Below are positions 12,145 to 32,010 of a DNA stretch of 33,897 bases, piece by piece. Source of the DNA: Verrucomicrobiota bacterium. Lineage in GTDB: Bacteria > Verrucomicrobiota > Verrucomicrobiia > Chthoniobacterales > SZAS-18. Made by a program: the position numbers and the translations under genes. Location: assembly GCA_025353105.1 (NCBI GenBank), contig JANXRG010000016.1, positions 1 through 33,897 on the forward strand, written 5' to 3'. The notes below the pieces were generated by a model. It was not told where the DNA came from. It made no database searches and was given only the letters and a program-made list of their open reading frames with translations. Each line of letters opens with the position of its first letter. Within the stretch, counting starts at the first letter, position 1.

Positions 12145-14609
12145 TTTGTCAGCCGCGCGTGTCGGAGGCGAAGCGCATTCGTGATCACGGACACGGAGCT
12201 CAGGCTCATCGCGGCACCGGCAATCATCGGGCTCAACAGCGTGCCGGTGAAAGGATACAACACGCCCGCCGCAATGGGCACGCCGACAAGGTTGTAAACA
12301 AACGCGAAGAACAAGTTTTGCCGAATATTGCCGAGCGTGGCCCGGCTCAGCCGAATGGCCTTGCCGATTCCGCGGAGATCTCCTTTTACGAGCGTGATAC
12401 CCGCACTCTGCATGGCGACATCGGTGCCGGTGCCCATCGCGATGCCCACCTCGGCCTCGCTCAACGCCGGTGCGTCGTTAATGCCATCGCCTGCCATGGC
12501 GACGTGTTCGCCCGCGGAACGCAGGTCTTTCACCTTGGACACTTTTCCATCCGGCTCGACCTCGGCCTCGACGGCATCAAGTCCGAGCGTCTTGGCGACC
12601 GCGTCGGCCGTGCGCCGATTGTCGCCCGTGAGCATGACGATCTTCAGGCCAAGCTCATGCAGCTCCCGAATGGCTTCCGGCGTCGATTCCTTGATCGGGT
12701 CCGCCACGGCGATAACGCCGGCCGGTTTTCCGTCAACGGCGACGAACATCGCGGTCTTTCCAGCTTCCTGCAGCTTGGCCGCGATGGTTTCAAGCGGCTC
12801 AAGACCGCCCACGCCTTCCTGACGAAGAAACGCGGTCTTCCCGACCAGGACGGAGCGTTCGCCCACCTTGCCGGCCACGCCACCGGCGGTGACCGATCGG
12901 AAGTCGGAGACGGCGGTGGGTGAGATCCCCTGGTCGGCGGCCCCGCGAACGATGGCTGCCGCCAGTGGATGTTCGCTGCTCTGCTCCAGCGATGCGGCGA
13001 GCAGCAGCAACTCCTTCGCCTCAAAACCATCCGCTGGCAGCGTGTCCATCAGCCGCGGTTTTCCCTCCGTGAGGGTGCCGGTCTTGTCGATGACGAGCGT
13101 CGTGACCTTTTCCAGGCGTTCGAGGGATTCCGCGCTTTTCACCAAGACACCCTCCTGCGCGCCACGGCCCACTCCGACCATGATCGACATCGGCGTGGCA
13201 AGCCCCAGGGCGCACGGGCAGGCGATGATCAGCACCGCGACCGCGTTCACAATCGCGTGCGCCAGCCGCGGCTCCGGCCCGACCAATATCCAAATGATAA
13301 ACGTGAGCACGGACGCTCCGACCACGAACGGGACAAAAATACCCCCCACCCGGTCCGCAAGACCCTGAATCGGCGCGCGGCTCCTCTGGGCCTCCGCGAC
13401 CATCGCGACGATTTGTCCGAGCATCGAATCGCTGCCGACGCGCTCCGCCCGGACGACAAAACTGCCCGTGCCATTCACCGTGCCGCCCGTCACCTTGTCT
13501 CCGGCCTTCTTTTCCACCGGAAGTGGTTCGCCGGTGATCATTGATTCCTCGACGTTGCTGCGTCCCTCGAGGACCACGCCGTCGACCGGCACCTTGTCCC
13601 CGGGAACGACGCGAAGGCGATCGCCGACCTTCACGCGATCCAGCGAAACTTCTTCGTCGCCCTTTTCGGTGATGAGTCGGGCGGTCGGCGGAGCGAGATT
13701 TAGCAGCGCTTTGATCGCACTACCGGTGCGGCTGCGCGCGCGCAGCTCCAACACCTGCCCGAGGAGCACCAGCACAATGATCACGGCCGCGGCTTCGAAA
13801 TAGATGCCGACTTTCCCGCCCATGTCCGTCGAAGGCGGAAAGAGCCCCGGCGCGAGCATGGCCGCCACGCTGTACACGTAAGCGGCGCCCACGCCGATCG
13901 CGATCAGCGTGAACATATTCAAATGCCACGTCACGATGGATCGCCAACCGCGGACAAAGAACGGGGCCCCGGCCCACAACACGACCGGCGTGGCGAGGAG
14001 GAACTGGCCCCAACGCGACCAATCGCGGTTGGCCCACTCCAGATGACCCAGCGCGGGGATCACGTGCAGCATCGCGACCACGAAGACGGGGAGCGCCAAA
14101 AGGCCGCCGATCCACAGTCGGCGCGTCATGTCGCGCAATTCAGAATCGTCTTCTGGCGCGTCGGCGGCCGGGGCTTTCAATTCCAGCGTCATCCCGCAGA
14201 TGGGGCAGTTCCCCGGATGATCCTGCTCGATCTGCGGATGCATCGGACAGGTGTAGATCACCTTCCTTTCCGCCTTCCACGCTGGGTTGCGCTCGAGGAC
14301 CATTCCGCATTTTGGGCACGAGCCAGGCTTATCGGACGTCACGCCCTCGCACATCGGGCAGAAATATTTTGCCGCCGCCGAGGGTTTCACGTCCGCACTC
14401 GCGTGGTGCGAATGCCCGCCGTTCCTGCCGCCGCAACCGGATGAAGCGGCCGCCTGGTCATCGCCGCAATCCCCCTTCCCGCCCTTGGCCCCCGACCCAA
14501 ATTTTTCCCGGCACGATTCACTGCAAAAAAAGAAGACCTCGTCGTCGCGCGTCGCGCTCAGCGCCGTCTGCTCGTCCACTTGCATTCCGCAGATAGGGTC
14601 CGTCTTCAT
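12141..14609 (-). CDS. copA: Cu(I)-type P1B ATPase with YHS and two CPxC metal-binding domains
   Basis: Membrane pump that uses ATP to move Cu(I) (or Ag(I)) out of the cytoplasm. Seen: a YHS domain at ~1-40 ([22 protein letters not shown]); a Gly/His stretch (GHSHH) at ~65; two related zinc-ribbon-like segments with C-P-M-C/H and C-P-x-C-G-M (residues ~83-150); eight expected membrane segments with the CPC motif (ACPCALG) near 465; actuator TGEP near 360; phosphorylation site DKTGTLTEG near 508; SEHPLAAA; and GDGINDAP near 710. The last helix carries MSLSS, and an earlier one YNLVG, both marks of the Cu(I) subgroup. The classical CxxC ferredoxin-like domain is absent. At 822 residues it fits this subfamily. 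It is first in a two-gene unit with the hydrolase. Confidence 0.94.
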
Positions 14610-14709: not shown

Positions 14710-15201
14710 TCACTTCTTCGCCAGCGCGCGAGAGGAATTGTGGGATACCATGATTCGCCATTTCCCACCCTGCTTGTGCAGGACGCTGCTCGTGACGCCC
14801 TGTCGCTCCACGACTTTCCCATCCGCCTTCACGACGATTCGGTAGACGTACGTCTCGGTGGCAAACGCATAAGGCAGTTCAAGTCGCACCTCGACCTTGT
14901 AGTCGTTAAATTTGAACTCGCTGAATTCGGTGAGTTCGGGCGTGAGATGATGCTCCAAATATGTTAGGTAGTTTCCTTCCACGCCGCCGGTCTCATAGAT
15001 CATGGAATCACGGGTGAAAAATTCCGCGGTTTTTGAGACATCGAGTTTCTCCACTGCGGTCTTGTACGCGTCGAGCACGGCGATGACCGCCGAATTGCCA
15101 CTTGCCGATGCTTTCCCGAGAGCGGATGCCGGCTGCTCGTGCCCCAGTGCGATCGAGCTGACCGCCAGGAGTGCAACGGTCAGAAAGTTTTTCGCGTTCA
15201 T
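14710..15201 (-). CDS. Secreted DUF4440/SnoaL-like protein
   Basis: Small exported protein of the NTF2-like (DUF4440) fold. Residues 1-20 are a signal peptide ending near ALG; the rest has the family's pattern: a first helix (VIAVLDAYKTAVEKLDVSKTA), FFTRDSMIYETGG, and a closing strand ending KWRIMVSHNSSR. It is 163 residues. The start overlaps the stop of the RND pump by 4 nt, so it is the last gene of the efflux operon. The fold is used for many small-molecule binders and enzymes; no catalytic residues can be named. Its position suggests a periplasmic accessory role in metal tolerance, which is inference. Confidence 0.75.
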   Translation of the reverse strand: MNAKNFLTVALLAVSSIALGHEQPASALGKASASGNSAVIAVLDAYKTAVEKLDVSKTAEFFTRDSMIYETGGVEGNYLTYLEHHLTPELTEFSEFKFNDYKVEVRLELPYAFATETYVYRIVVKADGKVVERQGVTSSVLHKQGGKWRIMVSHNSSRALAKK

Positions 15202-18200
15202 GGTTTGGTGGGCATCGTGGCGGAGGCCAGTTCAGTTTCCGGGCGACCGGGGGTGGGAGTCAGCGGGCGGGCGTTCGCGGTTCGCGGAAGGACGACAACG
15301 TCAGCAAACGGATCGGCATTCGCGCGGGCGAGATATTGCTCGCTGGCCTTGCGTCCAAATTTAAAAAAAATCGCGGGTGTGACCGCCATATCGAGAATCG
15401 TCGAACTCACCAGTCCACCCAGGATGACGACCGCCACCGGAAAGAGGATTTCTTTGCCCGGCTGTCCAGAGGAAAGAACGAGCGGGATCAGGGCGAGGCC
15501 GGCCGTGAGCGCGGTCATCGTCACCGGCACCAATCTCTCCAGGGAACCGCGCACCACCATGTGCCGGCTGAAGGTCTCTCCCTCATGCTCCAGCAAATGG
15601 AGGTAGTGCGAAATCATCATGATGGTGTTGCGCGACGCGATCCCCGCCAGCGTGATAAACCCAACCAGCGATGCGATGCTGATTTTCCCGACCATCAGAT
15701 ACGTCAGTGCGAGCCCGCCGACGAACGCGAGGGGAATGTTCAGGAGAATCTGGGCGACGACGACGCCACTGCGAAAATGCGAATAGAGGACGAGGAACAT
15801 CGCCGCCAGCGTGAAGACCGAAAGAATGCCGATGAGTCGGCTGGCCTCTTGCTGGCTCTGAAATTGCCCTTCAAAGGCAATAAAATACCCGCTCGGAAGG
15901 TGGACCTTTTCGGCCACCTTGAGCTGGGCCTCGCGCACCACCGAACCAAGGTCCCGTCCGCTGACATTGGCGGCCACGACAATTCTTCGCTGAACGTTCT
16001 CGCGATTGATGATGTTGGGGCCCTTGCTTTCCTGGATGTCGGCGATCAAGGACAGGGGAATCTTTCTCCCACCCTCTGCATCCACCAAGGTGTGGCGAAA
16101 CGCCTCGACGCTGCTGCGCGCGCTTTCCTGATAGCGAACGAATATATCGTAAGTCTTTTGGCCGTCCAAGACCTGCCCAGCCACCTTGCCGTTGAAGGCG
16201 ACTTCGAGGACCTCGTTGAGTTCGCCGACCTGCACCCCATAAAGGCGCGCTCTTTCGCGATCGACCTGAATGCGCACTTGCGGGATGAGCACCTGTTTTT
16301 CGACCAGTAAATCCACGAGGCCGGACACGCCACGCAACACGCCTTCGACCTCGGCCGCCGCGGCGCGCAGGCCGTCGAGATCGGAGCCGAAAATCTTCAC
16401 CGCGATCTGGGCGTTCACCCCCGAGAGAATATGATCGAGCCGGTGACTGATGGGTTGTCCCACATTGACCACCGTGCCCGGGATCTGCGAGAGCTTGGTC
16501 CGGATTTCATCGAGCACTTCCGGATGTTTTCGATTCGAGGACTTCGCCTTGAAGTCGACATCAATCTCCGTTGAATGGACACCCTCAGCGTGTTCGTCCA
16601 GTTCCGCCCGCCCCGTCCGGCGTCCGACGGACGCAACCTCCGGCACGCCGAGAATGATCTTTTCGGCGATCACTCCGATGCGGTTGGATTCCGCGAGAGA
16701 AGTACCGGGTGCGCTCAGCAGGTTAATGGTGGACGTCCCCTCGTTGAAGGGAGGCAGAAATTCCTTGCCCATCATCGGATAGAGCGCGGCCGCCACGGCC
16801 ACGAGCGCGAGCGCAGCCCCGATCACGATCCAGGGATGGCGCAGCGAGGGTGAGAGAACGAAACGGTCGTCAAAGGACTTAATCCGGCGCACCAACCAGC
16901 CATCTGCTTCGCTGCCGATCCGCTTCATCCCGGGCAGCAAATAGGAGCAAAGGACCGGGATCACCGTGAGGGAGACGATGAACGATGCAATCATCGCGAC
17001 GATCGTCGCGATGCCGATCGGCGCAAATAATCGACCTTCGATTCCGCCCAATCCAAAGAGCGGAACGAAGACGAGGACGACCAGGATCGTGGCAAACAGA
17101 ATCGAGTTTCGCACCTCGCTCGAAGCGTTCGCGATGACGCGCAGCACCGGTCTGGGCGAGGCAGCGTGCCGATTTTCGCGGAGCCGGCGATAAACGTTCT
17201 CCACATCGACAATGGCATCATCCACCACCATGCCGATGGCCACGGCGAGACCGCCGAGCGTCATCGTATTGATCGAGATGCCGGCGAACTTGAAATAAAG
17301 CGCCGTGACCACAAACGACAACGGGATCGCGGTGAGGGTGATCAACGTGGTCCGGAAATTCAGCAGGAAAAGGAACAGGACGATGACGACCATGATCCCG
17401 CCATCGCGAATGGCCTCCTCCACGTTCGTGATCGCCGAGCGGATGAAATTGGCCTGCTTGAACAGGGGTTGAATTTTGACGTCGGGGGGAAGTCCCTTCT
17501 GAATGTCCGATAGTGCCTCCTCCACCCGCTTGGTGAGTAAGATCGTATCGACGCCGGGTTGCTTCTGGACGGACACGATAACGGCGGCGCGCCCGTTGAC
17601 CCCGGCGTCTCCGCGCATGACCTGCCGGCCGAACTTCACCTCAGCCACCTGCCGCAGGAGGACTGGCACCCCGTCTCGCACCGCCACCACCGAGTCGGCA
17701 ATCGCATCGAGCGAAGTCGTACGGCCAATGTTTCGGACCAGTGATTCCTGATTCGCCCCTTCGAGGTAGCCGCCGGCGGTGTTCGTCTGCGAGCGCGCCG
17801 CCGCGTCCTGGACCTGTTTCAAAGTTATGCCATAAGCAGTGAGTTTTTCCGGACTCGCGATAATTTGATACTGCTTCACGCCGCCCCCGATGGGAATGAC
17901 CTGGCTGACTCCCGCGATCGTCAGGAGCCGCTGCCGAATGGTCCAATCCGCAATGGTTCGAAGGTCCATGGGGGCGGTCTTGTCGCCTTCGCTGCTCAAC
18001 CCAATGAGCATAATCTCGCCCATGATCGAGCTGATCGGCCCCATCACCGGGGTCACCCCTTTTGGGAGCTTCTCTCCCGCCAACTGAAGGCGCTCTTGCA
18101 CGAGTTGCCGTGCCCTGAAAATGTCGGTGTTCCAGTCGAACTCAATGAAGACGAGGGAGAGACCGATGCCGGAGTTGGATCGCACCCGCAGGACCCCCGG

Positions 18201-18428
18201 CGCGCCGTTCATCGCGGTTTCCAGCGGGAGCGAGACGAGGGTTTCGACTTCCTCCGGCGCCAGGCCTTCCGCCTCGGAGAGAATCGTCACGGTCGGCCGG
18301 TTGAGATCCGGGAACACGTCCACCGGTAGCTTCACGAGCGTGAATACCCCGTAGATCAGCAACAGGATCGATCCGGCCAGCACAATGAGCCGATTCCGGA
18401 GCGAGAATTCGATCAGCCGATTGAGCAT
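15198..18428 (-). CDS. Heavy-metal efflux RND pump (CusA/CzcA family)
   Basis: Proton-driven inner-membrane pump of the HME subfamily, exporting cations through a periplasmic adaptor and an outer-membrane channel. The 1076-residue protein has the CzcA/CusA beginning (FSLRNRLIVLAGSILLLIYG, then VKLPVDVFPDLN) and two sets of membrane helices around two large periplasmic loops. The fourth helix reads AIGMVVDDAIVDVEN (Asp403, Glu410). CzcA has an Asp where this has the first Ala, as in CusA, but CusA has Ala and Met at the two further acidic positions (404, 408). By eye, two of the three CusA copper-binding methionine positions are not Met. So the ion is uncertain. It starts 15 nt after the adaptor and overlaps the next gene by 4 nt. 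Confidence 0.92.
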   Translation of the reverse strand: MLNRLIEFSLRNRLIVLAGSILLLIYGVFTLVKLPVDVFPDLNRPTVTILSEAEGLAPEEVETLVSLPLETAMNGAPGVLRVRSNSGIGLSLVFIEFDWNTDIFRARQLVQERLQLAGEKLPKGVTPVMGPISSIMGEIMLIGLSSEGDKTAPMDLRTIADWTIRQRLLTIAGVSQVIPIGGGVKQYQIIASPEKLTAYGITLKQVQDAAARSQTNTAGGYLEGANQESLVRNIGRTTSLDAIADSVVAVRDGVPVLLRQVAEVKFGRQVMRGDAGVNGRAAVIVSVQKQPGVDTILLTKRVEEALSDIQKGLPPDVKIQPLFKQANFIRSAITNVEEAIRDGGIMVVIVLFLFLLNFRTTLITLTAIPLSFVVTALYFKFAGISINTMTLGGLAVAIGMVVDDAIVDVENVYRRLRENRHAASPRPVLRVIANASSEVRNSILFATILVVLVFVPLFGLGGIEGRLFAPIGIATIVAMIASFIVSLTVIPVLCSYLLPGMKRIGSEADGWLVRRIKSFDDRFVLSPSLRHPWIVIGAALALVAVAAALYPMMGKEFLPPFNEGTSTINLLSAPGTSLAESNRIGVIAEKIILGVPEVASVGRRTGRAELDEHAEGVHSTEIDVDFKAKSSNRKHPEVLDEIRTKLSQIPGTVVNVGQPISHRLDHILSGVNAQIAVKIFGSDLDGLRAAAAEVEGVLRGVSGLVDLLVEKQVLIPQVRIQVDRERARLYGVQVGELNEVLEVAFNGKVAGQVLDGQKTYDIFVRYQESARSSVEAFRHTLVDAEGGRKIPLSLIADIQESKGPNIINRENVQRRIVVAANVSGRDLGSVVREAQLKVAEKVHLPSGYFIAFEGQFQSQQEASRLIGILSVFTLAAMFLVLYSHFRSGVVVAQILLNIPLAFVGGLALTYLMVGKISIASLVGFITLAGIASRNTIMMISHYLHLLEHEGETFSRHMVVRGSLERLVPVTMTALTAGLALIPLVLSSGQPGKEILFPVAVVILGGLVSSTILDMAVTPAIFFKFGRKASEQYLARANADPFADVVVLPRTANARPLTPTPGRPETELASATMPTKP

Positions 18429-18443
18429 GGCTTGATTTCCTTG

Positions 18444-19610
18444 TTATCGGGGGCGCGACCATGCGGCCGGCCCAGCAGCGCCTTCCTCCGCACTCGGAAT
18501 CTCCTTCCGACTCGAGAGGCGTCGTGAACGCACGAGAAAAACATTCACCGCGATCGATGCGATGAGCGCAATCGCTAAAGCCCATGAATAGACGCGCTGC
18601 CGCCCGCCCGGGGCCCTTTCCGAAGTCGGCGGTGAAACATCATCATCGTGGTCCGCCTTTCCCGATGACTTCGCGGGAGCGACATATTGGAGTTGGTAAT
18701 TGCCGGTGACGACCGCTTTTTCCCCGGGGACGACTCCCTCGATGATCTCGACGTATCGGTCGTCGGAAATTCCGGTTACCACGGACCGCCGCTCAAACAT
18801 CAACGAGTTCTTATCCTGCTCGACGAAGACAAAGAGACTACCGGCGCTTCCGAGCACGGCCGAGCGCGGCACGGCCGCCACCGCGTCACCTTCGGCCGCC
18901 ACGACGGTGATGACCGCTTGAAAATGCGGGCGCAGCTTCAGCTCCGGATTCGCAATTCGCGCCCAAACCCGAACCGTGTGCGTTTCGAGGTCGAGCGATC
19001 CCGCGATGCGCTCGATCTTGCCTTCAAAAACTTCGTCCGGATTCGCCTCCGTGCGGACCCGAACCCTTTGACCCGGACTAATCTGATTCACCTGTCCCTC
19101 AAAGACCCGCGCCTGGGCGTAGACTTCCGTTAGGTCAGCGACCGACAGCAGTTTGGTGTTGGAATCGGTACCGGAGCCGACGAAAACGTCGCGTGAAAGT
19201 ACGACGCCATCAATCGGCGAAACATACTCGGCGCGAGGGGCCGGATTGCCCACCTGCAGACTCTCGACTTCGGCCACCAGCTCTCCTTTCCGGACCGTCT
19301 CTCCATCATTCACCGGAAGCTTGGTTACGCGACCGGCAATGCGGCTGCTGATCACCACGGTGCGATCTGGAATGGCCTGAATCTGTCCGAGGACCAGCAG
19401 TGTCTTTTCGATTTTTCGAATCTCGACTTCCGCTGAGACCAACCCGAGATTCTTCCGTGCCTCAGCGGAAATCGTGACCGGACCGCTGACGATGGTGTCT
19501 GTGTCTCCCGGAGTTTTGTCGTGCCCTTCGTGGGCGCGCAGGGCCGAACCGGAAAGCTGCAAGCCCATCGCCAGACCCATCATTATCAGAAAGCGTCGCG
19601 GAGTCTTCAT
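18444..19610 (-). CDS. RND efflux periplasmic adaptor (CusB/CzcB family)
   Basis: Membrane-fusion protein joining the RND pump to the TolC-like channel. From ATG 19610 it has 388 residues: signal peptide at ~1-25 ending in RAHEG, a short His-containing stretch (HEGHDKTPGD), the barrel-sandwich halves (VVISSRIAGRVTKLPVNDGETVRKGELVAEV and SPIDGVVLSRDVFVGSG), and a beta-barrel region. The helical hairpin is almost missing, as in CzcB-like short adaptors. A hydrophobic segment near the C-terminus (WALAIALIASIAVNVFLV, ~345-365) is unusual and predicts a second membrane anchor. The upstream frame is open to 19700, but that extension would overlap tolC and has no signal. Gap to the channel gene is 31 nt. 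Confidence 0.9.
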   Translation of the reverse strand: MKTPRRFLIMMGLAMGLQLSGSALRAHEGHDKTPGDTDTIVSGPVTISAEARKNLGLVSAEVEIRKIEKTLLVLGQIQAIPDRTVVISSRIAGRVTKLPVNDGETVRKGELVAEVESLQVGNPAPRAEYVSPIDGVVLSRDVFVGSGTDSNTKLLSVADLTEVYAQARVFEGQVNQISPGQRVRVRTEANPDEVFEGKIERIAGSLDLETHTVRVWARIANPELKLRPHFQAVITVVAAEGDAVAAVPRSAVLGSAGSLFVFVEQDKNSLMFERRSVVTGISDDRYVEIIEGVVPGEKAVVTGNYQLQYVAPAKSSGKADHDDDVSPPTSERAPGGRQRVYSWALAIALIASIAVNVFLVRSRRLSSRKEIPSAEEGAAGPAAWSRPR

Positions 19611-19641
19611 GGAGGATTTTCTGGAAGTTCGAACAAAACTT

Positions 19642-20991
19642 TCAGCGCTTGGTTTGCGCCTGGATCGCGGGCCGGCGAAGTCGCAAGAGTTCCGGAGCAA
19701 GCAATCGATTAGAGGCCGTTGCGGTCTGCAGGTCTACCAGCGCCAGGGCGCGGTCGCGCGCCAAATCGACCGCGGCGATCCGCAGCGTCGCGCGTTGGTT
19801 CTGAGATTGCAGGATTTGGGTAAAATCGGCTTTGCCCTCGCGGTAGCCCTGCTGAAGGACCGCCGTGTTCTGGCTGATTAACGGCAGCAGACTGCGCTCA
19901 TACGTTTCGAGAGCCGCTCCGATCCGGGCCGCCCGTTCGCCCGCGACTGCAATCTCGGTCTGCACGCCCAACCGCTGGGCGGAAAGTTGCCCGACGGCGA
20001 GTCTCTCAGCGGATTGTTGTTCGTAGATCTTGCCCTGGTTTTGATTGAAGGCGGGGAGCGGGATGCTCAGTTTGAGACCGAGTGAGCGATCCGTGACGAG
20101 TCCAATGGGAACATCGGACCGCCGGTTCTGGTCGAAACCGAAACTCACCGTGGGATCGCCCCAAGCGACGGAAGAGGCGAGCCGAGCCTCCGCCCGAGCG
20201 CGTTCCGCCGCCAATTCCACCGCCCTCAAGTCCGGCCGGAGCGAATACGCCCGCCGCGGATCGACGGGGGCGCCGAGCGATCCGGCCACGCCCCGCAACG
20301 AACCTTCGATCGAAAGCGGGGTCTGGGGCGCGAGACCCAATTTCTGCTTCAACGCCAGCAAATTTGCTTCGCGATCCGCCTCGAGGAGTCGGATTTCTTG
20401 TTGCAGTTTTTGGGTCTCGATGTTGGCCAGATTCACGTCCACCTGCGAAACTTGGGCCGCCTCGAACCGCTGGCGGGACAGGGTCACCAGCGCATTGGTG
20501 GTTTCGAGCAACTCGCGTCGCGCCGCAATTTGCTCGCTGCCGGCGAGGACCTGGATGAACATGCGCTGCACGTCCCCAATCAAAAGTCGCTCGCGGTTTC
20601 GAATTTCAGCGATGGCGAGCGCGACCTCCACGCGACCCACCGTGCGCGCGTGCTTCAGCCGGCCCGTGATGGGAAAAGCCTGACTTACTGCCAGGGCAAA
20701 TTTTCGCTCACCTTCGTTCTTGAAGGCGCGGTCCGTTTCTCCCGCCAACTCCAGGGAGGGGTTGGGCAGGAGCCCCGCCTGCAGCAGGCGTCCACGGGCC
20801 TTTTCCACTTCATAGTACGCCGCCTTCAGCTCCAGATTGTTCCGCAGCGCGAGCTGCGCTGACGCCTCCATCGTCAGGGCATGACTCCGCGGAATTCCAG
20901 CCCCCGCGATGGTCGCGGCGATAACGACTCCCAACAGATGGCAGAATCGGCGATGACGAGACGAAATGAGAAGCATGAAGCGAGCATCCAC
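19642..20991 (-). CDS. TolC-like outer-membrane efflux channel (CusC/CzcC type)
   Basis: Outer-membrane channel of the tripartite metal efflux system. The 449-residue protein has an N-terminal signal (GVVIAATIAGAGIPRSHA), two copies of the outer-membrane efflux domain (~40-215 and ~235-430) rich in long helices with Arg, Gln and Glu, and the sequence NPSLELAGETD typical of CzcC/CusC. Start choice: GTG at 20991 or ATG at 20976, both before the signal. First gene of the four-gene efflux operon; it diverges from the cnrYXH-like genes, with 110-150 nt between them for shared control. Confidence 0.9.
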   Translation of the reverse strand: MDARFMLLISSRHRRFCHLLGVVIAATIAGAGIPRSHALTMEASAQLALRNNLELKAAYYEVEKARGRLLQAGLLPNPSLELAGETDRAFKNEGERKFALAVSQAFPITGRLKHARTVGRVEVALAIAEIRNRERLLIGDVQRMFIQVLAGSEQIAARRELLETTNALVTLSRQRFEAAQVSQVDVNLANIETQKLQQEIRLLEADREANLLALKQKLGLAPQTPLSIEGSLRGVAGSLGAPVDPRRAYSLRPDLRAVELAAERARAEARLASSVAWGDPTVSFGFDQNRRSDVPIGLVTDRSLGLKLSIPLPAFNQNQGKIYEQQSAERLAVGQLSAQRLGVQTEIAVAGERAARIGAALETYERSLLPLISQNTAVLQQGYREGKADFTQILQSQNQRATLRIAAVDLARDRALALVDLQTATASNRLLAPELLRLRRPAIQAQTKR

Positions 20992-21029
20992 TGGGATCCG
21001 TTGCCCGTTTAACGCTCACAGACGCTGGT

Positions 21030-21042
21030 TTCCCTCAGGGAA
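21030..21042. promoter_or_regulatory. Palindrome in divergent promoter region
   Basis: TTCCCT-C-AGGGAA, a 6-bp perfect inverted repeat around one base, sits in the 138-nt gap between the divergent efflux operon and the sigma-factor operon. It is a candidate operator or part of an ECF promoter, but no -35/-10 pair could be assigned with confidence. Confidence 0.35.
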
Positions 21043-21129
21043 TCTTTCGTCGTATTGCAACCCATTCCTTGCTTGCATCAATCCGGAATGCGGGGGAAGG
21101 CGACCCGTCAGCGTTATAGGGCATTAACC

Positions 21130-21480
21130 ATGAATATCCCAGGCGACCACGATACCCGACTCGACGAGGGCCTGACTGCGCTCGCCCGCCAACCTGTGCC
21201 GGAATGTCCACTGAATCTGAGCGCGATTGTCTGGCGGGAAATCCGCCGTCGCCGGGCCGAGCCCGCAGACGATTGGGTGACAACTCTATTCGAATTCTTC
21301 CGGCGTCCGACCCTGGCCATTCCCGCCTTTGCGTTCGCCATCGCACTCGGAACATTGGTCGGCGCAATGGGTGCCACGAGATCGTCCACCGACATCCGCC
21401 TGGCCCGTCAATCCCTGCATTTGGAAGTCTTCGAGCCGAACGCATCCGGGCTTTCCGCCGTCTTCGCCAGCCAACGATGA
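21130..21480 (+). CDS. Small single-TM protein, CnrY-like anti-sigma candidate
   Basis: 116-residue protein with a cytoplasmic-type N-terminus (residues 1-60, acidic then Arg-rich: WREIRRRRAEP) and one membrane helix at ~61-81 (FAFAIALGTLVGAMG), leaving about 35 residues in the periplasm. I do not recognise a family by sequence. The call rests on layout: it starts an operon whose next genes are a CnrX-like sensor (4-nt ATGA overlap) and an ECF sigma factor, the same order as cnrY-cnrX-cnrH, and the topology equals that of CnrY. ATG 21130 is chosen because an upstream extension to 21055 runs through the probable promoter. Role as anti-sigma is inference. Confidence 0.6.
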   Translation: MNIPGDHDTRLDEGLTALARQPVPECPLNLSAIVWREIRRRRAEPADDWVTTLFEFFRRPTLAIPAFAFAIALGTLVGAMGATRSSTDIRLARQSLHLEVFEPNASGLSAVFASQR

Positions 21481-21929
21481 TTGCCAAACGAAAACTCGGG
21501 GTCGGATATTTTTTTGCGTCGATTGCGGCTGTTGCGATCATCTGCTCCCTGGGCGCGGCGTGGTTTGTTCGAACCAGTTCGCCACGGCGCACGGAGCGTG
21601 AGGCGCACGCGTGGTTGCACGATCATCTTCGTCTCACCGCCGAACAGGAGCGTCGACTGGAGCCGCTGGAAGAGCGCTTTGCGGCAGAGCGGAAGACATA
21701 TCTGGATCAGATTCGGAACGCAAATCGTGACCTCGCTGCAGCGATCAAATCCGAAGGTCGATTCACCCCGAAGATCGAAGCGGCGATCGAACGGATTCAC
21801 CGGGCACAGGTCGAGTTCCAAAAGGCGACCATCCGCCACTGCCTTGAAATGCAGGAGTTCTTGACGCCCGCTCAGTCGAAACAGCTTTTCGAGATTGTGG
21901 CTGACGCCTTGGATCACGATGGTGATTAG
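21477..21929 (+). CDS. CnrX-like periplasmic metal sensor
   Basis: Membrane-anchored periplasmic sensor of the CnrX/Spy/CpxP type. Residues 9-31 form the anchor; the rest is a helical hairpin domain with two LTxxQ motifs (LTAEQ at 53-57, LTPAQ at 129-133). His44, His48, Glu65, His121 and Met125 have the same relative spacing as the Ni/Co ligands of Cupriavidus CnrX (His42, His46, Glu63, His119, Met123), each shifted by two. In that system metal binding makes CnrX release the anti-sigma CnrY and frees the sigma factor. The start overlaps the preceding stop (ATGA). Length 150 residues matches CnrX. Confidence 0.85.
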   Translation: MIAKRKLGVGYFFASIAAVAIICSLGAAWFVRTSSPRRTEREAHAWLHDHLRLTAEQERRLEPLEERFAAERKTYLDQIRNANRDLAAAIKSEGRFTPKIEAAIERIHRAQVEFQKATIRHCLEMQEFLTPAQSKQLFEIVADALDHDGD

Positions 21930-21999
21930 CTGATGCGCCGCAGTTGGGTCACCTTCGCCGTACTTCTGACGCAAATCACGCGTCGGAAATTCCCGTGCC

Positions 22000-22575
22000 A
22001 TGGTGCCTGACGATTCAACCCTCATCCAAAATCTGCAGGCCGGCGACGAGCGAGCTCTTGATGAGATCATGGACCGCTACCAAGAGCCAATATTCGGCTT
22101 TGCTTTTCGTCAGCTGTACGATGCTTCGGCCGCCGCAGACGTGACCCAAGAGACGTTCGTCCGCGTCTATTTGAACCGCGCGCAGTTCAAGCCCACCGGC
22201 ACCTTCCGATCCTGGCTTTATCGCATCGCTTCAAATCTGTGTGTCGACCACATTCGCAAAGCTCGACGTTCACCGACCGCGAATGCCGCGACGAAGCTAG
22301 CGCCTGAACACGGCGGCACGATTCTGGACCGGCTCGAGGCAACGGGGGTCGCTCCCGACGAAGCCGCCGCCCGCTCGGCGGACATCACCGAGTTGAAAGC
22401 GGAAATCGCGTTGCTTCCGCCCGCGCTTCGCGAACCATTGGTGCTCTTTGCATTGGAGGAACGCTCACAGCGGGAATGTGCCGAAATTCTTGGTATTTCG
22501 GCCAAGGCCGTGGAGACCAAGGTGGCGCGGGCAAGAGAGATCCTTCGGCAGCGGCTGACTTCCCGATCGCGTTAG
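22000..22575 (+). CDS. ECF RNA polymerase sigma factor (CnrH-like position)
   Basis: Alternative sigma factor that directs RNA polymerase to a small regulon. The 191-residue protein has region 2 (ALDEIMDRYQEPIFGFAFR, then DVTQETFVRVYLN and FRSWLYRIASNLCVDHIRK) at ~15-90 and region 4 at ~130-185 with a helix-turn-helix (SQRECAEILGISAKAVETK). Between them is a linker. ATG 22000 lies 70 nt after the sensor's stop. By position it is the third gene of the cnrYXH-like unit and should act on the divergent efflux operon and on its own promoter; that is inference from order, not from a recognised promoter. Confidence 0.92.
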   Translation: MVPDDSTLIQNLQAGDERALDEIMDRYQEPIFGFAFRQLYDASAAADVTQETFVRVYLNRAQFKPTGTFRSWLYRIASNLCVDHIRKARRSPTANAATKLAPEHGGTILDRLEATGVAPDEAAARSADITELKAEIALLPPALREPLVLFALEERSQRECAEILGISAKAVETKVARAREILRQRLTSRSR

Positions 22576-22623: not shown

Positions 22624-23880
22624 CTAGAACGACACCCGCAGCCCTGCCACGAATGCGACCGCGGTGGCAGGTTCGCCTTCGGCACGCGCCAACGAAGCCG
22701 TCCCGCCATATTTGCGCTGCCAGGAGACGCCGATATAAGGCGAGAAATCCTTCCGAATGTCGTAGCGAAGGCGCAGGCCAAGGTCGGTCTGGTTCATTCC
22801 TTTACGGGTGGAAAACTGCTTGTCCCCCTGCGCTGAAGCCTCGGCCCGGAGACGCGGCTGCAATACGAGACGTTGGGTTAAATAGAGATCGGCCGTGATC
22901 GTTAATTCCGCGGAGACTTCCCCGCGGTCGCTGATGTAGAGGCTCGGTTCGACGTCGAAATTGCCCGGTGCCAATCCCTGAATTCCGAGGACGGCGTAGG
23001 TGCGGGTGTTACGCGCTCGCCCGGGACCCATGACCCCGTTAAATCGCACGCCCGCTTGGAAATCCCAAAACGGCGCGATCAACCGCCCATACAACAGCTG
23101 GAGGTCTCCCTGAACGCCGTTGCCCCGATTGAGCTTCAGATCGCCTTCGGTCTTGACCCAGAGACGATTGTAGTCACCTCCAAACCAACCGACAAAATCC
23201 CAGGTGAAGGTCGCGGGTCCGGAATTGTAAACACGGTATTCGAGCAACTCAAACAGCAAAAAACTATGGGGCATTGAGTCCTCAATCGGCGGCGGCAGCG
23301 ACTTGAGGTCCCCTTCCAGTTCTGCGCGTGGAACCAGTTCGGAGGAGCGGTCGTCGCCTGGCGGCGGCACCCATTTTTGCGGCGGGCCAAGGATTGTCAC
23401 GCCCGGAACGCTCACGCGCGGTGGGCCCAATTCGCCAGCCGGGGCCCTTCCCGGCATCGCACTCATGGCGCCCGTAGCGGGATCCGTGGATTTCGCCGCA
23501 GCCGCTTTGCCAGTTGTCATTCCCGGCATCGCATCCATCGCCTTCCTGGCCGCTGAGTCGGTCGGAATTTTCGGAGCCGGTGTTGCGGCATCGGCGGGGG
23601 TCGGCTTGGTCGCCGGCGTTGACGTAGGCGACGGCGCCATACCCGGCATCGTATCCATCGCCTGCTGGGGAGATGAGGTGGCCGGAACTTTGGGGGTCGG
23701 AGTCGGCGGACCAGCTTCTTGTTTCGGCTTGGCCGCCGGCGTTGGCGTAGGTGCCGGCGCCATTCCCGGCATCCCTTTCATGTCCTCCTGACCCAGCGCA
23801 TCGCCAATCCAGAAATGAACCGCGGTCAAGATGCACACCGTCGCTAGGGCCGCGCGCACGATTGAGATTTCGCGTTTCAT
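22624..23880 (-). CDS. copB: Copper resistance outer-membrane protein CopB
   Basis: Outer-membrane beta-barrel of the CopB family, which works with the CopA oxidase in periplasmic copper tolerance. Residues 1-31 are a signal peptide. Residues ~34-145 are a Pro/Ala/Thr-rich segment with four MPG[M/R] motifs at 37, 78, 118 and 142. From about 180 to the end is the barrel (ELLEYRVYNSGPATFTWDFVGWFGGDYNRLWVKTEG, seen as alternating strands), ending in the aromatic residue Phe expected for outer-membrane insertion (VAGLRVSF). At 418 residues it is longer than most CopB proteins because of the Met-rich repeats. It starts 12 nt after copA, forming one operon. Confidence 0.92.
   Translation of the reverse strand: MKREISIVRAALATVCILTAVHFWIGDALGQEDMKGMPGMAPAPTPTPAAKPKQEAGPPTPTPKVPATSSPQQAMDTMPGMAPSPTSTPATKPTPADAATPAPKIPTDSAARKAMDAMPGMTTGKAAAAKSTDPATGAMSAMPGRAPAGELGPPRVSVPGVTILGPPQKWVPPPGDDRSSELVPRAELEGDLKSLPPPIEDSMPHSFLLFELLEYRVYNSGPATFTWDFVGWFGGDYNRLWVKTEGDLKLNRGNGVQGDLQLLYGRLIAPFWDFQAGVRFNGVMGPGRARNTRTYAVLGIQGLAPGNFDVEPSLYISDRGEVSAELTITADLYLTQRLVLQPRLRAEASAQGDKQFSTRKGMNQTDLGLRLRYDIRKDFSPYIGVSWQRKYGGTASLARAEGEPATAVAFVAGLRVSF
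23446..23781 (-). repeat. Coding repeats with MPGM motifs in CopB
   Basis: Residues 34-145 of CopB contain an internal duplication: the first two units are 41 and 40 residues long, each running MPGMAP - Pro/Thr-rich tract - KVP or KIP - AMD, followed by two shortened units. Unit boundaries are visible also at the DNA level, for example the repeated 'cccggcatcg' near 23522, 23642 and 23454. Methionine-rich motifs of this kind bind Cu(I). Confidence 0.75.
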
Positions 23881-23892
23881 GGGTGAACCTGA

Positions 23893-25713
23893 TCAGGCTT
23901 TGGGTGCGACCGAAACGACGCGAAACATTCCCACTTCCATGTGGTACAACACATGGCAGTGGAAGGCCCATAGACCGGGCGCATCGACGGTGATTTCAAC
24001 CGAGAGTCTCTCGGCGGGTTTAAGGATGACGGTGTGCTTGCGTGGCTTGTTTGCTCCGCGTCCATTGTCGAGTTCCATGAACATCCCGTGCAGATGAAGC
24101 GGGTGCTCCATCATGGTGTCGTTGACCATGGTAAAGCGGAGGCGTTCGCCGTAGTTGAAGCGAATGGGTTCTTTGGCCTCAGAATATTTTTTGCCATCGA
24201 AGGACCACATGTAGCGATTCATGTTTCCGGTGGCGTGAATCTCGATTTCGCGTTCGGGAGGTCGGCGATCGCTGCCCGGTTGGAGACTCTGGAGATCGGT
24301 GTAAACCAGCACGCGCCATGGCATCCCCTCGAGGCCCGTGCCGGGCTCCCCGAGCCGATTTTGCGGTGCCATCGCAACGGACGAGTTCCCGGGACCATGT
24401 TCGTCGGGTCCGTGCACCCAAGGTCCGCTGGCTGCGTTGGCCTCTTTGGCCGGCATCTTCATGCCGGGCATTCCGGGAGCGGGGGCCGGCGGGACCTTCG
24501 CGATGCTCGTTTTCATTCCCGGCATGCCCGCCATTTCGCCACCCGCAGAAGGAGCCGCCGCCGCTCCTGGCGCCTTCATCCCTGGCATGCCCGCCATCCC
24601 GCCGGTCATCGCCATTCCCATGTCCGCCATGGTGCGCACGGGACGCTTCCGCCGTTCGGGAAGAGCCGCCGTCATCCCCGCGCGCGGCGCCAGCGTGCCG
24701 CGCGCGTATCCGCTGCGGTCCATCGTTTCGGCGAAGATGGTGTAGGCGCGGTTTTCCTTTGTTTCAACGAGGACGTCGTAAGTCTCCGCAATGCCAATCC
24801 GGAATTCATCCACCGTCACCGGCTTCACATTCTGTCCATCGGCTTGGACGACGGTCATGCGTAGCCCGGGAATGCGCACATCGAAAAACGTTACTGCCGC
24901 GGTATTGATAAAGCGCAGCCGCACCCGCTCCCCAGGCCGGAAGAGTCCCGTCCAATTTGAGCCGGGCGCGAGGCCGTTCATGAGGAAGGTGAAGTAATGC
25001 CCCGTGATATCGGCAATGTCGGTCGGGTCCATTCGCATCCTGCCCCAGGCCCAACGATCCGCGAGCGCCGCCGGGAGGCCGTCCTTCGCGGCGTCGCTGA
25101 TGAAATCACCGACCGTGCGTCCCTTGTAATTCGAATAAGAGCTCATTCCCTTGAGCTTGTTCATCATCGCGGCGGGATCGCCGGAAAGCCAGTCGCCCAG
25201 CACGACCACATATTCGCGATCGTAATGAAATGGCTCGGGGCCCGCCGGACCGATGATCAGCGGTCCGTAGACCCCGAGCTGCTCCTGCGCCGCGGTGTGG
25301 CTATGATACCAATACGTGCCGTTCTGTCGGACCGGGAAGCGATAGGTAAAGGTCTCTCCGGGGGCGATACCGGGAAAGGTCACGCCCGGCACGCCGTCCA
25401 TTCGATACGGCAGAATCAAGCCGTGCCAATGGATCGAACTCGATTCACCGACGAGTTGATTAGTAACGCGAATCACCGCATCCTGCCCCTCGCGCAAACG
25501 CACGAGCGGACCGGGCACGGTTCCGTTAATCGCGATCGCCGCCGCCCGACGTCCGCCGATTTCGATCGTTTGTCTGCCGATGGTTAGATCGAGCGACCCG
25601 TCAGCGGTGCGAGACGGTTTCCCAGTCCGCGCATACGCTGGAACCAGGTTTTCATAGGCGGCCAACAAACCAGCGGCGGCGGTGAGACGGAGGAAGCGGC
25701 GTCTTGGGATCAT
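23893..25713 (-). CDS. copA: Multicopper oxidase CopA (copper resistance, TAT-exported)
   Basis: Periplasmic copper oxidase that converts Cu(I) to less toxic Cu(II). From ATG 25713 it has 606 residues with a twin-arginine-like signal (RRRFLRLTAAAGLLAAY) and cupredoxin domains. All four copper motifs are visible: HWHG near 94, WYHSH near 137, HPLHLHG near 537 and HCHVLYHMEVGM near 587, the last with the Cys and axial Met of the type 1 centre. Residues ~360-422 are a Met-rich insertion with several GMPGMK units, likely a Cu(I) reservoir. An upstream ATG at 25761 is possible but adds residues before the signal. This is the PcoA/CopA type; the separate P-type ATPase in this window shares the name copA by convention only. 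Confidence 0.94.
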   Translation of the reverse strand: MIPRRRFLRLTAAAGLLAAYENLVPAYARTGKPSRTADGSLDLTIGRQTIEIGGRRAAAIAINGTVPGPLVRLREGQDAVIRVTNQLVGESSSIHWHGLILPYRMDGVPGVTFPGIAPGETFTYRFPVRQNGTYWYHSHTAAQEQLGVYGPLIIGPAGPEPFHYDREYVVVLGDWLSGDPAAMMNKLKGMSSYSNYKGRTVGDFISDAAKDGLPAALADRWAWGRMRMDPTDIADITGHYFTFLMNGLAPGSNWTGLFRPGERVRLRFINTAAVTFFDVRIPGLRMTVVQADGQNVKPVTVDEFRIGIAETYDVLVETKENRAYTIFAETMDRSGYARGTLAPRAGMTAALPERRKRPVRTMADMGMAMTGGMAGMPGMKAPGAAAAPSAGGEMAGMPGMKTSIAKVPPAPAPGMPGMKMPAKEANAASGPWVHGPDEHGPGNSSVAMAPQNRLGEPGTGLEGMPWRVLVYTDLQSLQPGSDRRPPEREIEIHATGNMNRYMWSFDGKKYSEAKEPIRFNYGERLRFTMVNDTMMEHPLHLHGMFMELDNGRGANKPRKHTVILKPAERLSVEITVDAPGLWAFHCHVLYHMEVGMFRVVSVAPKA

Positions 25714-25925
25714 GAGGTTGAGGGGTAAAACGAGGTCGACGGTGGATTCCACCATGAGCACGGCGGGCGCGGGACGAAGACGGCTGAGTAGTCGCTCCTA
25801 TGTTGCGCCGGCCCGACGCCAAATGGTTGCAGCTGCATGATCCTGGCAAAACCGACGGAGCCCCGCCGAACACGCTCTCGTCCTTCCAGTTCGGAAAGCG
25901 CGGGCAGAAATCCTGGATTCCAGTC

Positions 25926-26234
25926 TCAGTGGCCATGTGGCTTTCCGTCGCTCGTCATCATCTCGCCGTCCATGCCCATCATCTCGCCTTCTTTCATCAT
26001 TGCTTTCATACCGTCCTTCATCGTGACGGTGCCGTCCGGAGTCACTTTGGTACCATTCGCCAGGACGACTTCCTTGTCTGCTGGCATGGTCTTGCCGCCC
26101 ATCACCATCAGCACCTTCCCATCTTTCATCATGATGTGATCCTTCATCATCGCTTTATCATCTCCGGCGAAGCCGGTAATCGCGAACGACAGGCTAACAA
26201 TTGCTACCGCTAGGATCTTAATCAGTGTTTTCAT
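25926..26234 (-). CDS. Exported Met-rich DUF6799-like protein
   Basis: 102-residue secreted protein: a signal peptide (MKTLIKILAVAIVSLSFAITGFAG), then three short motifs built on MMKDGK/VLxxGxKVxPDGTV, and a very Met-rich tail (DGMKAMMKEGEMMGMDGEMM) ending in His-Gly-His. The repeating K-D-G units recall the DUF6799 family, which is found next to copper and other metal genes. The protein is likely a periplasmic metal chaperone or buffer. It is the first gene of the copA-copB unit, about 210 nt before copA. The repeat copy at 26285-26367 lies 50 nt before its ATG. Confidence 0.75.
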   Translation of the reverse strand: MKTLIKILAVAIVSLSFAITGFAGDDKAMMKDHIMMKDGKVLMVMGGKTMPADKEVVLANGTKVTPDGTVTMKDGMKAMMKEGEMMGMDGEMMTSDGKPHGH

Positions 26235-26284: not shown

Positions 26285-26367
26285 GGCTGCGCTTGATGTT
26301 TTAGTCTCTCGCAACTTCATTCAGCGGTCTACGCATCCGCCCGGAAAAGCTGCGCGTTTTCTCGGAT
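26285..26367. repeat. Copy 1 of conserved upstream repeat (46-bp perfect core)
   Basis: Positions 26322-26367 are identical to 32048-32093 over 46 bp. Toward the downstream gene, positions 26285-26321 match copy 2 at 23 of 37 bases without gaps. Within the core, ATCCG and GAAAA pair with TTTTC and CGGAT across an 8-nt loop and a small internal bulge (26335-26367). The element lies between the end of the RND gene and the DUF6799-like gene. Confidence 0.85.
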
Positions 26368-26460: not shown

Positions 26461-29400
26461 CTACCCGGTTCCCGCTGGTCGCGTCGTTGATGCTTGGGGA
26501 GGGAGTGCGCGTCTTTCGGCGGCCGTCCGGTTTGCCATGAAATAGAGGACCGGCACGGCCATGCGGCTGATGAGCAGTGAGGCAATCTCGCCGGCCATGA
26601 GCGCGATCGCGAGGCCCTTGAAGATCGGGTCGGCGAGGATGACGCTGGCGCCGACGACAACCGCAAGCGCGGTGAGAAGCATCGGGCGAAAGCGCACGGC
26701 ACCCGCATCGACGACGGCTTCAGCGAGGGGCATGCCCTCGGCCAGACGCTGCTGGATGAAATCAACAAGAATGATCGAGTTGCGCACGACGATGCCCGCG
26801 CCGGCCATGAAGCCGATCATCGATGTGGCGGAGAAAAATGCGCCGAGCAGGCCGTGCGCGGGCAGGATGCCAACGAGCGAAAATGGGATCACAATCATGA
26901 CAATAAGTGGCGTGAGGAAGCTGCGGAACCAGCCGACCATCAACACGTAAATGAGCACGAGAACGGCCGCGAAAGCGGAGCCGAGGTCGCGGAAGACTTC
27001 GATTGTGATATGCCATTCGCCGTCCCACTTGATCGCGGGGCGCGCATCGGTAAACGGCTGCACCGCGTTGAAGATTTGCAGCGGCGTGCCGTCGCCGCCG
27101 AACGCGCGGGTGTCGAGCTTCGCCAGTGCGTCATTCATTTTCCCGATCGCGTAGACGGGGCTTTCAATCGCGCCGGCGACGTCGCCAATGACGTAGGTCA
27201 CAGGCATCAGGTTTTTGTGGTAGATGCTCTTCTCAGTGACCGTTTGCTCGACGCGCACCAGTTCGCGCAATGGGATGAGGGGCGCGACGCCGGTCGCGCC
27301 GGGCTCGGGCAGCGCATTGGCATCGCCGGAGCGGACGCGCAGCGCGAGCAATTCGTCGGGGGTGGTGCGCGCGGAGCGAGGCAGCTCCAGCATGATGTTC
27401 ACATCCTCCTTCTCGCGCGGCAGGTGGAGCAGGTCGACGGATTCACCGCCGACCGCGATGCGCAGCGTCTGTGAAATCGTCTCGGCGCTGATGCCGTGCA
27501 AGGCGGCCTTCTCCTTGTCGATGACAAAGCGCACCTTCGGCTGATCGGCCTCGACGTACCAGTCCACGTCCACGACACCCGGCGTGCTCTTAAAAATGTC
27601 GCGAACCTTGCGCGCGAGCGCGTGGCGGTTCGTCTCGTTCGGGCCGTAGATCTCGGCGACGAGCGTTTGCAGGACGGGCGGGCCGGGTGGCACCTCGGCG
27701 ACGGCGACGCGTGCGTCGAAACGGGCGGCGATCTCGGCGAGGCGGGGACGGACGCGCTTCGCGATGTCGTGGCTCTGCGCCTTGCGGTCGTCCTTCGAGA
27801 CGAGATTCACCTGGATGTCAGCGACATTGGCGCCCCGGCGCAGGAAATAGTGGCGCACGAGTCCGTTGAAATTGAAGGGCGACGCGACCCCGGCGTAAAT
27901 CTGGTAATCGGTGACTTCTGTTTCCAGGCGCACCGCCGCGGCGATCTCGCGCGCGGCCTGGGTCGTGCGCTCGAGCGAGCTACCCTCGGGCAGGTTCAGG
28001 ATCACCTGGAACTCACTCTTGTTGTCGAACGGCAGCATTTTCACCTTCACCCAGCCGAGCGCGACGGTGACCATCGCCCCGAGCAACAGCGCGGTGATCG
28101 AAGCGAGGAAAAGCCAGCGCCAGCGCGCCTCTGCGATCATCGGTCCCATCACCCGGTGATACAGTCGCGTGAAGAAATCCTCCTGGTGCCCGGAGTGGCT
28201 CTGCGGGCCAGTGGCTGCGGCGCCTCCGGTGAGTCGCGAATATTTTTTGCCCCAACGCAGGATGCGGATCGAAGCCCATGGTGTGACGATAAAGGCGATG
28301 GCCAGCGACCAGCCCATCGCGGTGCCGGCGCCAATCGGAATCGGTCGCATGTAAGGCCCCATCAACCCGCCGACAAAGGCCATCGGCAACACGGCGGCGA
28401 TGACGGCGAAGGTCGCGAGGATCGTCGGGTTGCCGACTTCGCTCACCGCGGCCACGGCGATCGCGGACCAGCTTCGGCCCCGGTTTTGCGGGAGATGAAA
28501 ATGCCGGACGATATTCTCGACCACGACAATCGCGTCATCGACAAGGATGCCGATGCTGAAGATCAGCGCAAAGAGCGTGATGCGGTTGAGCGTGAAGCCG
28601 AGCAGGTAGAAGACGAGCAGCGTGAGCGCGAGCGTGGCCGGGATGGCGAGGGCGACAACGACCGACTCGCGCCAACCGAGCGTCAGCGCAATGAGCAGCG
28701 AAACGCCGAACACGGCGATGCCCATGTGTCGCAGCAGTTCGTTGGACTTCTCCGCCGCGGTCTCGCCGTAGTGACGCGTGATGGCGACGCCGATGTCTCG
28801 CGGGATGACGGTGCCTTCGAGCGTCTCGACTTTGCGCAGCACGTCCTCCGCGACGGAAATCGCATTCGCGCCGGGGCGCTTGGCGATACTAAGCGTGACG
28901 GCGGGCTCCTCATCCGGCGCCGATGCGCGCGCGGCCCCGTGGCCGAAGAATGTGTAATTCGACGGCTCCTCCGCGCCGTCCACGATTTCCGCAACCTCGC
29001 GCAGATAGACGGGCCGACCGCCGAAGACGCCAACGACCACGTTGCCGACGTCCTCCGCGCTCGCGAGAAAGCCGCCGGTTTCGATGACCACCTCCTGATT
29101 GTTCGTCGTGAGGCCGCCCGAGCGATACTGGCGGTTTCCCTGCTGGAGCATTGGCACGAGGCCGGCGGCGCTGAGATTGCGCGAGGCAAGGCGTACGGGA
29201 TCGAGCAGCGCGCGCACCTGACGCCGCGCGCCGCCGATGATTGTCGTCTCCGCGACGAGCGGCACGGCTTTTACCGCGTCGTCCACCTCCGCCACGAGAC
29301 GCCGCAGCGTGAGATGGTCGTAGCGGGCGCTGTGGAAGGTGAGAGCGAGGATCGGCACGTCGTCGATGGACTTCGGCTTCACCAGCGGCGAGGCGACGCC

Positions 29401-29796
29401 GTGGGGGATGCGATCGAAGTTCGAACGCAACTTCTCCGTGAGCGCAACGAGGCTCGCCTGCGGATCGGAACCGACCTTGAACCGCACGATGACGAGACTC
29501 TCGCTGTCGCGCGAGGTGGAGTAGATGTATTCGACGCCCGGGATTTCCCAGAGCAGCTTCTCCATCGGTCGCGTCGCGCGCTCCTCGACTTCCTTCGCCG
29601 TGAAGCCAGCCATGTTCACCATCACATCGACCATCGGCACCTTGATCTGCGGCTCCTCCTCGCGTGGCAGCAAAAGGAGGGCGGCGATGCCCAGAAGGAC
29701 CGCGGCAACGATGATGAGCGGTGTGAGCTTCGAGTCGATGAACGCGTGGGCGACGCGACCGGCGACCCCGCGCGGCGGCGAAACGTCCGCGCTCAT
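26461..29796 (-). CDS. RND efflux pump, HAE-like (second system)
   Basis: Proton-driven RND pump of 1111 residues, unrelated in detail to the pump at 15198. It begins with a short cytoplasmic tail and the first helix ([20 protein letters not shown]), then the periplasmic loop. The fourth helix has [15 protein letters not shown], with Asp420-Asp421 as in drug-efflux (AcrB-type) and related pumps, rather than the HME signature. The N-terminal [20 protein letters not shown] is typical of a group often found with DUF2892 and adaptor lipoproteins. The C-terminus is hydrophobic then Pro-rich. It overlaps its adaptor gene by 4 nt. Substrate unknown; the surroundings argue for metals or thiol-reactive stress. 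Confidence 0.9.
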
Positions 29797-31776: not shown

Positions 31777-31980
31777 TCACTTCTTCGGGGCGTCCTTCTC
31801 CTTCTTGTCGCAGCAGGGCGCGCATTTATCTTGGCCGCACTTCTCGCAACAGTCGCCGCCCTGGGTGCAACAGGTGCCGCATTCTTTGGTCGCCTTCATT
31901 TTCTTGGGTGCGTCCTGCGCCCACACAGGCAAAGCGGAAACGGCGAGTGCGAAGATGGCGAGTTTGAGGGTAGTTTTCAT
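31777..31980 (-). CDS. Exported cysteine-rich metal-binding-type protein
   Basis: 67-residue protein: signal peptide MKTTLKLAIFALAVSALPVWAQ (split at ~21) and a mature part of about 45 residues with nine cysteines at 34, 37, 38, 44, 45, 48, 53, 56 and 57, arranged ECGTCC, CCEKC, CAPCC, surrounded by Lys and Asp/Glu. The layout resembles a periplasmic metallothionein-like binder, not a known family. I chose ATG 31980; an upstream ATG at 32022 is in frame but removes the signal from the terminus and runs into the conserved repeat block. Candidate metal buffer; function inferred from composition. Confidence 0.75.
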   Translation of the reverse strand: MKTTLKLAIFALAVSALPVWAQDAPKKMKATKECGTCCTQGGDCCEKCGQDKCAPCCDKKEKDAPKK

Positions 31981-32010
31981 GGTCGAACGGTCTGTGAATA
32001 TTGAGCAAAG

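Follow-up and report, generated by a model that had tools for sequence, protein, structure and literature searches.

The window analysed here, a stretch of 33,897 bases from a member of the order Chthoniobacterales (Verrucomicrobiota), very probably encodes a metal switch of the CnrYXH type. This assignment is based on the homology and the metal ligands of a CnrX-type periplasmic sensor (X), on the gene order Y-X-H, in which X lies between a putative anti-sigma factor (Y) and an extracytoplasmic function (ECF) sigma factor (H), and on an ECF-type promoter located before an efflux operon. The host, in whose genome a 16S search had no hit and whose order is taken from the same-order Chthoniobacterales MAG VE2, is non-proteobacterial, as an earlier sequence-only reading of the window had suspected. 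The explanation that we favour, with fair confidence, is that the switch drives the efflux operon and responds to copper or to copper and nickel.

X is a protein of 150 aa encoded at 21477–21929 (+), and was assigned from its sequence, its fold and the conservation of its ligands. Translation of the ORF places His44 (codon 21606–21608, +), His48 (21618–21620, +), Glu65 (21669–21671, +), His121 (21837–21839, +) and Met125 (21849–21851, +) at the positions equivalent to H42, H46, E63, H119 and M123 of CnrX from Cupriavidus metallidurans CH34, translated from pMOL28. The sequence-only reading had proposed that all five CnrX ligands are kept at exact spacing, and this was borne out by an alignment to the solved CnrX and NccX sequences that is gapless over residues 42–145, with all five ligands offset by +2. 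As the alignment is gapless, the shift reflects homology rather than a coincidence of motifs. The best match to X among PDB sequences (phmmer) was NccX (4clv, 8e-14), with CnrX (3zg1) at 2.7e-13. The NccYXH system of strain 31A has a homologous X in which the ligands are kept, but it belongs to a Ni/Co/Cd determinant with an NccA pump and its sensor carries Glu at the position of His108 of the window protein. Identity of X to CnrX is 31–33 %, the same range as that of H to CnrH. The two LTxxQ motifs claimed previously are present, as LTAEQ (residues 53–57) and LTPAQ (129–133), and X matches the Pfam family LTXXQ at threshold.

Ninety-eight distinct homologues of X were gathered by similarity, many of them from Brevundimonas and Sphingomonas, and the exact HHEHM set was found in 89. 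Relatives on genome contigs were recovered with a closer alignment, a scan with the single protein having returned none and a first alignment having been too diverse. The DNA patterns behind the largest set of homologues held none of the five ligand residues. All five ligand columns were invariant or near-invariant across the family; among 45 non-redundant homologues (<70 % mutual identity) they took conservation ranks 2, 5, 6, 7 and 9 of 150, in a ranking where the search patterns inflate the columns near 112–116 and 128–136, and the probability of five given columns falling within the top nine of 150 by chance is about 2e-7. Together with the gapless phmmer alignment, this column conservation excludes a chance match of the ligands. 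The position of Met125 was occupied by Ile in two same-genus copies and by Leu in one same-order copy. The two same-genus Y-X pairs with Ile (L007 and L017) also have Leu or Ser at residue 108; their neighbours are CnrA/NccA-type pumps, and the sigma gene follows the pump gene. Three distant X-like sequences (L014, L015 and L016), each adjoining an H gene, are without the five-ligand site and have C-x3-C in its place, perhaps for a different ligand or signal. In a tree of X, many forks of which were unresolved, the window protein clustered with the same-genus copies amid verrucomicrobial sequences. One record labelled as a Pseudanabaena plasmid (L066) sat within the Brevundimonas loci by gene content and tree, and is likely to be contamination.

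An AlphaFold2 model of X (30 sequences, pLDDT 88.8) comprised one long N-terminal helix (residues 3–34) with a hydrophobic mid-part, in agreement with the single anchor helix claimed earlier, followed by a four-helix periplasmic hairpin. Foldseek ranked Ni-bound CnrX at the top (TM 0.86 on the target, 1.8 Å) and all of the top 15 matches were CnrX or NccX; the CnrX structures matched included Ni, Co, Zn and Cu forms, the copper form being 3EPV. Backbone superposition of the model on Ni-bound CnrX gave 1.7–2.0 Å, so that in structure prediction and superposition, the comparison that the sequence-only reading had put forward as a check, CnrX was the best match at the level of the backbone. CnrX was also ranked first by VIA-align (Z 12.7 over 105 residues, model 43–148 on CnrX 42–146), a method in which unrelated helical bundles reached Z-scores of up to 10.5; on its own this match of folds is therefore not a strong one, but it becomes strong when joined with the sequence and the ligand register. 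The proposal that X is instead a periplasmic protein with no part in signalling, a chaperone or metal buffer resembling Spy, CpxP and ZraP, which would fit the threshold Pfam match, the two LTxxQ motifs and the helical fold held in common with those proteins, is very improbable, given a far stronger match to CnrX/NccX in both sequence and fold (Foldseek E-values of about 1e-6 for CnrX versus 0.2–0.75 for Spy/CpxP/ZraP, which rule out a Spy/CpxP chaperone as nearest kin), a predicted membrane anchor in place of a free periplasmic form, and the Y-X-H gene order with its sigma-type promoters. X is therefore more than a generic Spy/CpxP match, as had been argued from the sequence.

The order Y-X-H (21130–22575) is that of cnrYXH and is repeated at most of the homologous loci within the phylum; in a same-genus genome, H is placed after the pump and not after X. 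Y (21130–21480, +; 116 aa) is a putative membrane anti-sigma factor by its CnrY-like position and size. It has one hydrophobic membrane helix and a conserved C-terminal tail, and its stop codon overlaps the start of X by 4 bases. H (22000–22575, +) is an ECF sigma factor with sigma-70 regions 2 and 4 and is 31 % identical to CnrH (E 1e-18), although SigW ranked above CnrH in one comparison, which gives no ground for grouping H with CnrH in preference to the remaining ECF families. Profiles of Y built without CnrY had no detectable similarity to CnrY, which counts against a CnrYXH-type explanation but is weak evidence for such short, fast-evolving proteins. An initial profile match to CnrY was circular, since CnrY sat in the alignment, and was gone once it had been removed. 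Compared with CnrYXH of CH34, the window has the same gene order, an ECF sigma factor, a sensor homologous over the whole periplasmic domain and the same promoter type (GAGGG-N17-CGTW) before efflux genes; it differs in the modest identity of X and H and the dissimilar Y, in a divergent efflux operon with a NieA-type rather than a CnrA-type pump, in His108 where CnrX has Glu106, in the copper genes alongside and in its verrucomicrobial host. Elsewhere in the same genome (contig C90, about 28845–29219), a Spy-like protein of family PF13801 that lacks the ligands (L002) lies beside another ECF sigma factor, and these are possibly a second sensor–sigma pair.

A promoter motif was found in the verrucomicrobial loci without reference to CH34: of 23 loci of the verrucomicrobial type, 15 carried GAGGG-N16/N17-CGTT ahead of Y, compared with three or fewer in shuffles. 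The promoter from which H is predicted to transcribe the divergent efflux operon (CTGAGGGA-N15-GCGTTAAA; 21008–21038, −) has the core GAGGG-N17-CGTT, laid out as in the mapped cnrC promoter. It was the window's best site when scored with a weight matrix from whose training the window had been left out (23.5, with the next site at 14.4 and a maximum of 20.6 in 40 shuffles). The exact form TGAGGG-N16/17-CGTTA has two matches in the 3.7-Mb genome, the second of which (contig C15) lies among unrelated genes and is likely to be a chance match. As judged from these sequence patterns, control of the resistance-nodulation-division (RND) operon by the sigma-H promoter is quite probable. The predicted promoter of Y-X-H itself (TGCGGG-N17-CGTT; 21089–21115, +) is a GCGGG variant, as in the same-genus copy, and falls outside the twelve best weight-matrix sites, a point against the overall explanation; autocontrol of Y-X-H from this variant is a weaker prediction than control of the operon. 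In CH34, the motif precedes cnrC, with CGTA 9 bases ahead of the mapped start at 54660, and a close variant precedes cnrY, 9 bases ahead of the start at 53286; both starts have been mapped, and that of cnrY has also been discussed as RpoD-dependent (PMC9045368).

The motif was also counted across all loci, as GAGGG-N15/17-CGT[AT] within about 300 bases upstream; some 3 % is expected for this count, and the loci are not independent. It was found before Y in 25 of 29 cases, before the outer-membrane efflux gene in six of 12, and before copC (49/60), copA (31/72) and Cu-ATPase genes (10/40), with frequencies of ≤2 % upstream of copB, copD, CusA and CusB genes. No sigma-type promoter was found before 13 cnrC-like genes outside CH34. 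With the weight matrix, copA of the window had no sigma-H site above noise and none was found for copB, and sigma-H control of the window's copAB was rejected.

The efflux operon, transcribed divergently from Y-X-H, begins with an outer-membrane efflux protein (OMF; 19642–20991, −; an ATG at 20976 is the likelier start) and a periplasmic adaptor (MFP; 18444–19700, −; an ATG at about 19610 is likelier). These are followed by a heavy-metal RND permease (15198–18428, −) and a SnoaL/NTF2-like secreted protein (14710–15201, −), the RND stop and the SnoaL start sharing 4 bases. A P1B ATPase of the copper type, containing HMBD and YHS domains (12141–14609, −), begins 100 bases after the SnoaL gene and probably belongs to the same operon. 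The permease was classed by comparison with CnrA, NccA and CusA and by motifs, CzcA not having turned up in the parts of pMOL30 covered; it is without the DFG-DGA-VEN signature of CnrA/NccA-type pumps and is instead of the NieA type, with the TM4 sequence AIGMVVDDAIVDVEN and the motifs HAEGVH (aa 613–618) and HRLDH (aa 662–666). Both motifs are shared with NieA of Cupriavidus neocaledonicus (nieIC cep nieBA; HME5 or a proposed class 6), which differs in having been described without Y-X-H and in having a proposed nickel role. NieA-type pumps also lie beside Y-X-H in three Opitutae loci (Opitutaceae), in a Nevskiales MAG and in others; other Y-X-H relatives pair with CusA-type or CnrA-type pumps. 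On plasmids, relatives of the window pump lie amid copper-type genes (DUF305, DUF411, a multicopper oxidase and a four-helix copper protein). The SnoaL/NTF2-like secreted protein joins NieA-type pumps in several phyla (L085, L086 and L153, the last a Hymenobacter plasmid) and accompanies a Cu-ATPase in Sphingopyxis (L045).

On the other side of Y-X-H, the neighbouring genes encode CopB, a copper-resistance outer-membrane protein (22624–23880, −), and CopA, a copper-resistance multicopper oxidase (23893–25761, −). Downstream of these copper genes there is a second RND pump with its adaptor, of a different class (26461–30815, −). An 83-base direct repeat (26285–26367 and 32011–32093; 83 % identity, with no mismatch over the final 45 bases) occurs upstream of two small secreted proteins, one Met-rich (25926–26234) and one Cys-rich (31777–32022, −); the latter contains CGTCC, CCEKCG and CAPCCD and is possibly metal-binding.

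By analogy with CnrYXH (PMC7689651), X would be anchored in the inner membrane, probably as a dimer in the periplasm, and would bind a metal ion through His44, His48, Glu65, His121 and Met125. Occupation of the site would alter the contact between X and Y, such that the one-helix anti-sigma factor releases H. RNA polymerase carrying H would then transcribe from GAGGG-N16/17-CGTT promoters, and its targets would be the OMF-MFP-RND-SnoaL operon, presumably with the Cu-ATPase, and, as a less well supported target, Y-X-H itself.

The sequence-only reading had concluded that X has a true metal-sensing role, likely for nickel or cobalt. The homology to CnrX/NccX and the ligand register uphold the first part of this conclusion; the second does not follow, as the same ligands are found in the sensors of copAB clusters. 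In Sphingomonadales and Caulobacterales, a five-ligand sensor lies directly ahead of copA-copB, and relatives in Sphingobium yanoikuyae have Y-X-H directly before copAB. Among alphaproteobacterial sensors labelled as belonging to copAB clusters, His-His-Glu-His was present in 59 of 59, and in 58 of these together with Met. These systems, annotated as ‘periplasmic heavy metal sensor’, share with the window the five ligands, His108, the gene order and the promoter type (GAGGG-N15/16-CGTA), but their targets are copA, copB, copC and Cu-ATPases, whereas the supported site in the window precedes the RND operon. Since the ligand set is common to sensors of copper genes, the ligands alone cannot decide between copper and nickel. 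With copA of the window lacking a promoter site above noise, the link to copper within the window comes from the Cu-ATPase that closes the efflux operon and from the neighbourhood, in which copper genes predominate. Copper is also favoured by the copper-bound CnrX structure 3EPV and by the induction of cnr by copper in CH34 (PMC7563307). An ECF sigma factor is likewise tied to copper defence in Myxococcus xanthus, but this factor, CorE, works without X and Y and detects the metal through a Cys-rich extension at its own C-terminus (PMC10141476). A literature search on CnrX with copper yielded nothing useful. Copper, either alone or together with nickel, is the likeliest physiological metal, with nickel/cobalt alone as the main alternative; two or three readings are in play, nickel/cobalt among them, with copper slightly ahead, and on balance we lean towards copper as a true effector of the switch.

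Should the switch instead sense nickel and/or cobalt, the efflux operon would be a nickel pump and the nearby copper genes would be independently regulated. This is rather unlikely, but nickel stays in consideration because the pump has NieA-type motifs proposed for nickel. The five-ligand set and its register are identical to those of CnrX; HAEGVH and HRLDH have been read as nickel-binding in NieA, a proposal made without experiment (PMC7060636); the same pump type accompanies Y-X-H in the Opitutae, Nevskiales and other loci; and the window's copA has no sigma-H site. The pump motifs also tell against the copper-leaning explanation, as does the pairing of same-genus Y-X genes with a CnrA/NccA-type pump where Met125 is replaced by Ile. 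Against nickel or cobalt alone, HME5 pumps also include the copper-associated CopA of Synechocystis (PMC7060636), relatives of the pump lie amid copper-type genes, five-ligand sensors elsewhere lie ahead of copper genes that have this type of promoter, and the efflux operon appears to continue into the Cu-ATPase.

It is similarly doubtful that X responds without distinction to Cu(II), Ni(II) and Co(II) in a broad divalent-metal stress switch whose regulon is general metal efflux. In CH34, copper brings about full induction of the whole cnr cluster (PMC7563307), although this effect could be indirect. In Sphingobium strain ba1, copA, copB and copC are induced by nickel, which was left unexplained there (PMC5557971), and the presence of Y-X-H before copAB in the S. 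yanoikuyae relatives would supply a link, on the assumption that strain ba1 has the sensor. Structures of CnrX are available for its Ni, Co, Zn and Cu forms, but its site can discriminate, as Met123 is not recruited when Zn is bound and Zn does not act as an effector (PMC7689651).

Residue 108 of X provides a lead on selectivity. His108 (codon 21798–21800) corresponds to Glu106 in CnrX and to Glu in NccX. It was present in all eight sensors from NieA-type contexts, in 59 of 59 from copAB contexts and in nine of 10 from CusA contexts, and the position was occupied by Glu, Leu or Ser beside CnrA/NccA-type pumps. As a mark of selectivity it is a lead only, having been spotted post hoc in two lineages, and helix geometry would place it about 20 Å from the five-ligand site.

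The five-ligand set may not be a signature of nickel or cobalt. We suggest, tentatively, that together with His108 it forms copper (or copper/nickel) sensors across Alphaproteobacteria and Verrucomicrobiota, which would drive copper-resistance genes from a CnrH-type promoter. If the set does serve copper, selectivity would be set beyond the first coordination shell; the solved structures found for this sensor family are those of Cupriavidus Cnr and Ncc only. For annotation, nickel or cobalt should not be called from the ligands alone. The Y-X-H module occurs, with its type of promoter preserved, in Verrucomicrobiota and Pseudomonadota at the least, and its partners vary, from pumps of the NieA, CusA or CnrA type to CopAB. 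How one five-residue site serves copper, nickel and cobalt is thus a testable question, the answer to which may explain the induction of copABC by nickel in Sphingobium and of cnr by copper in Cupriavidus.
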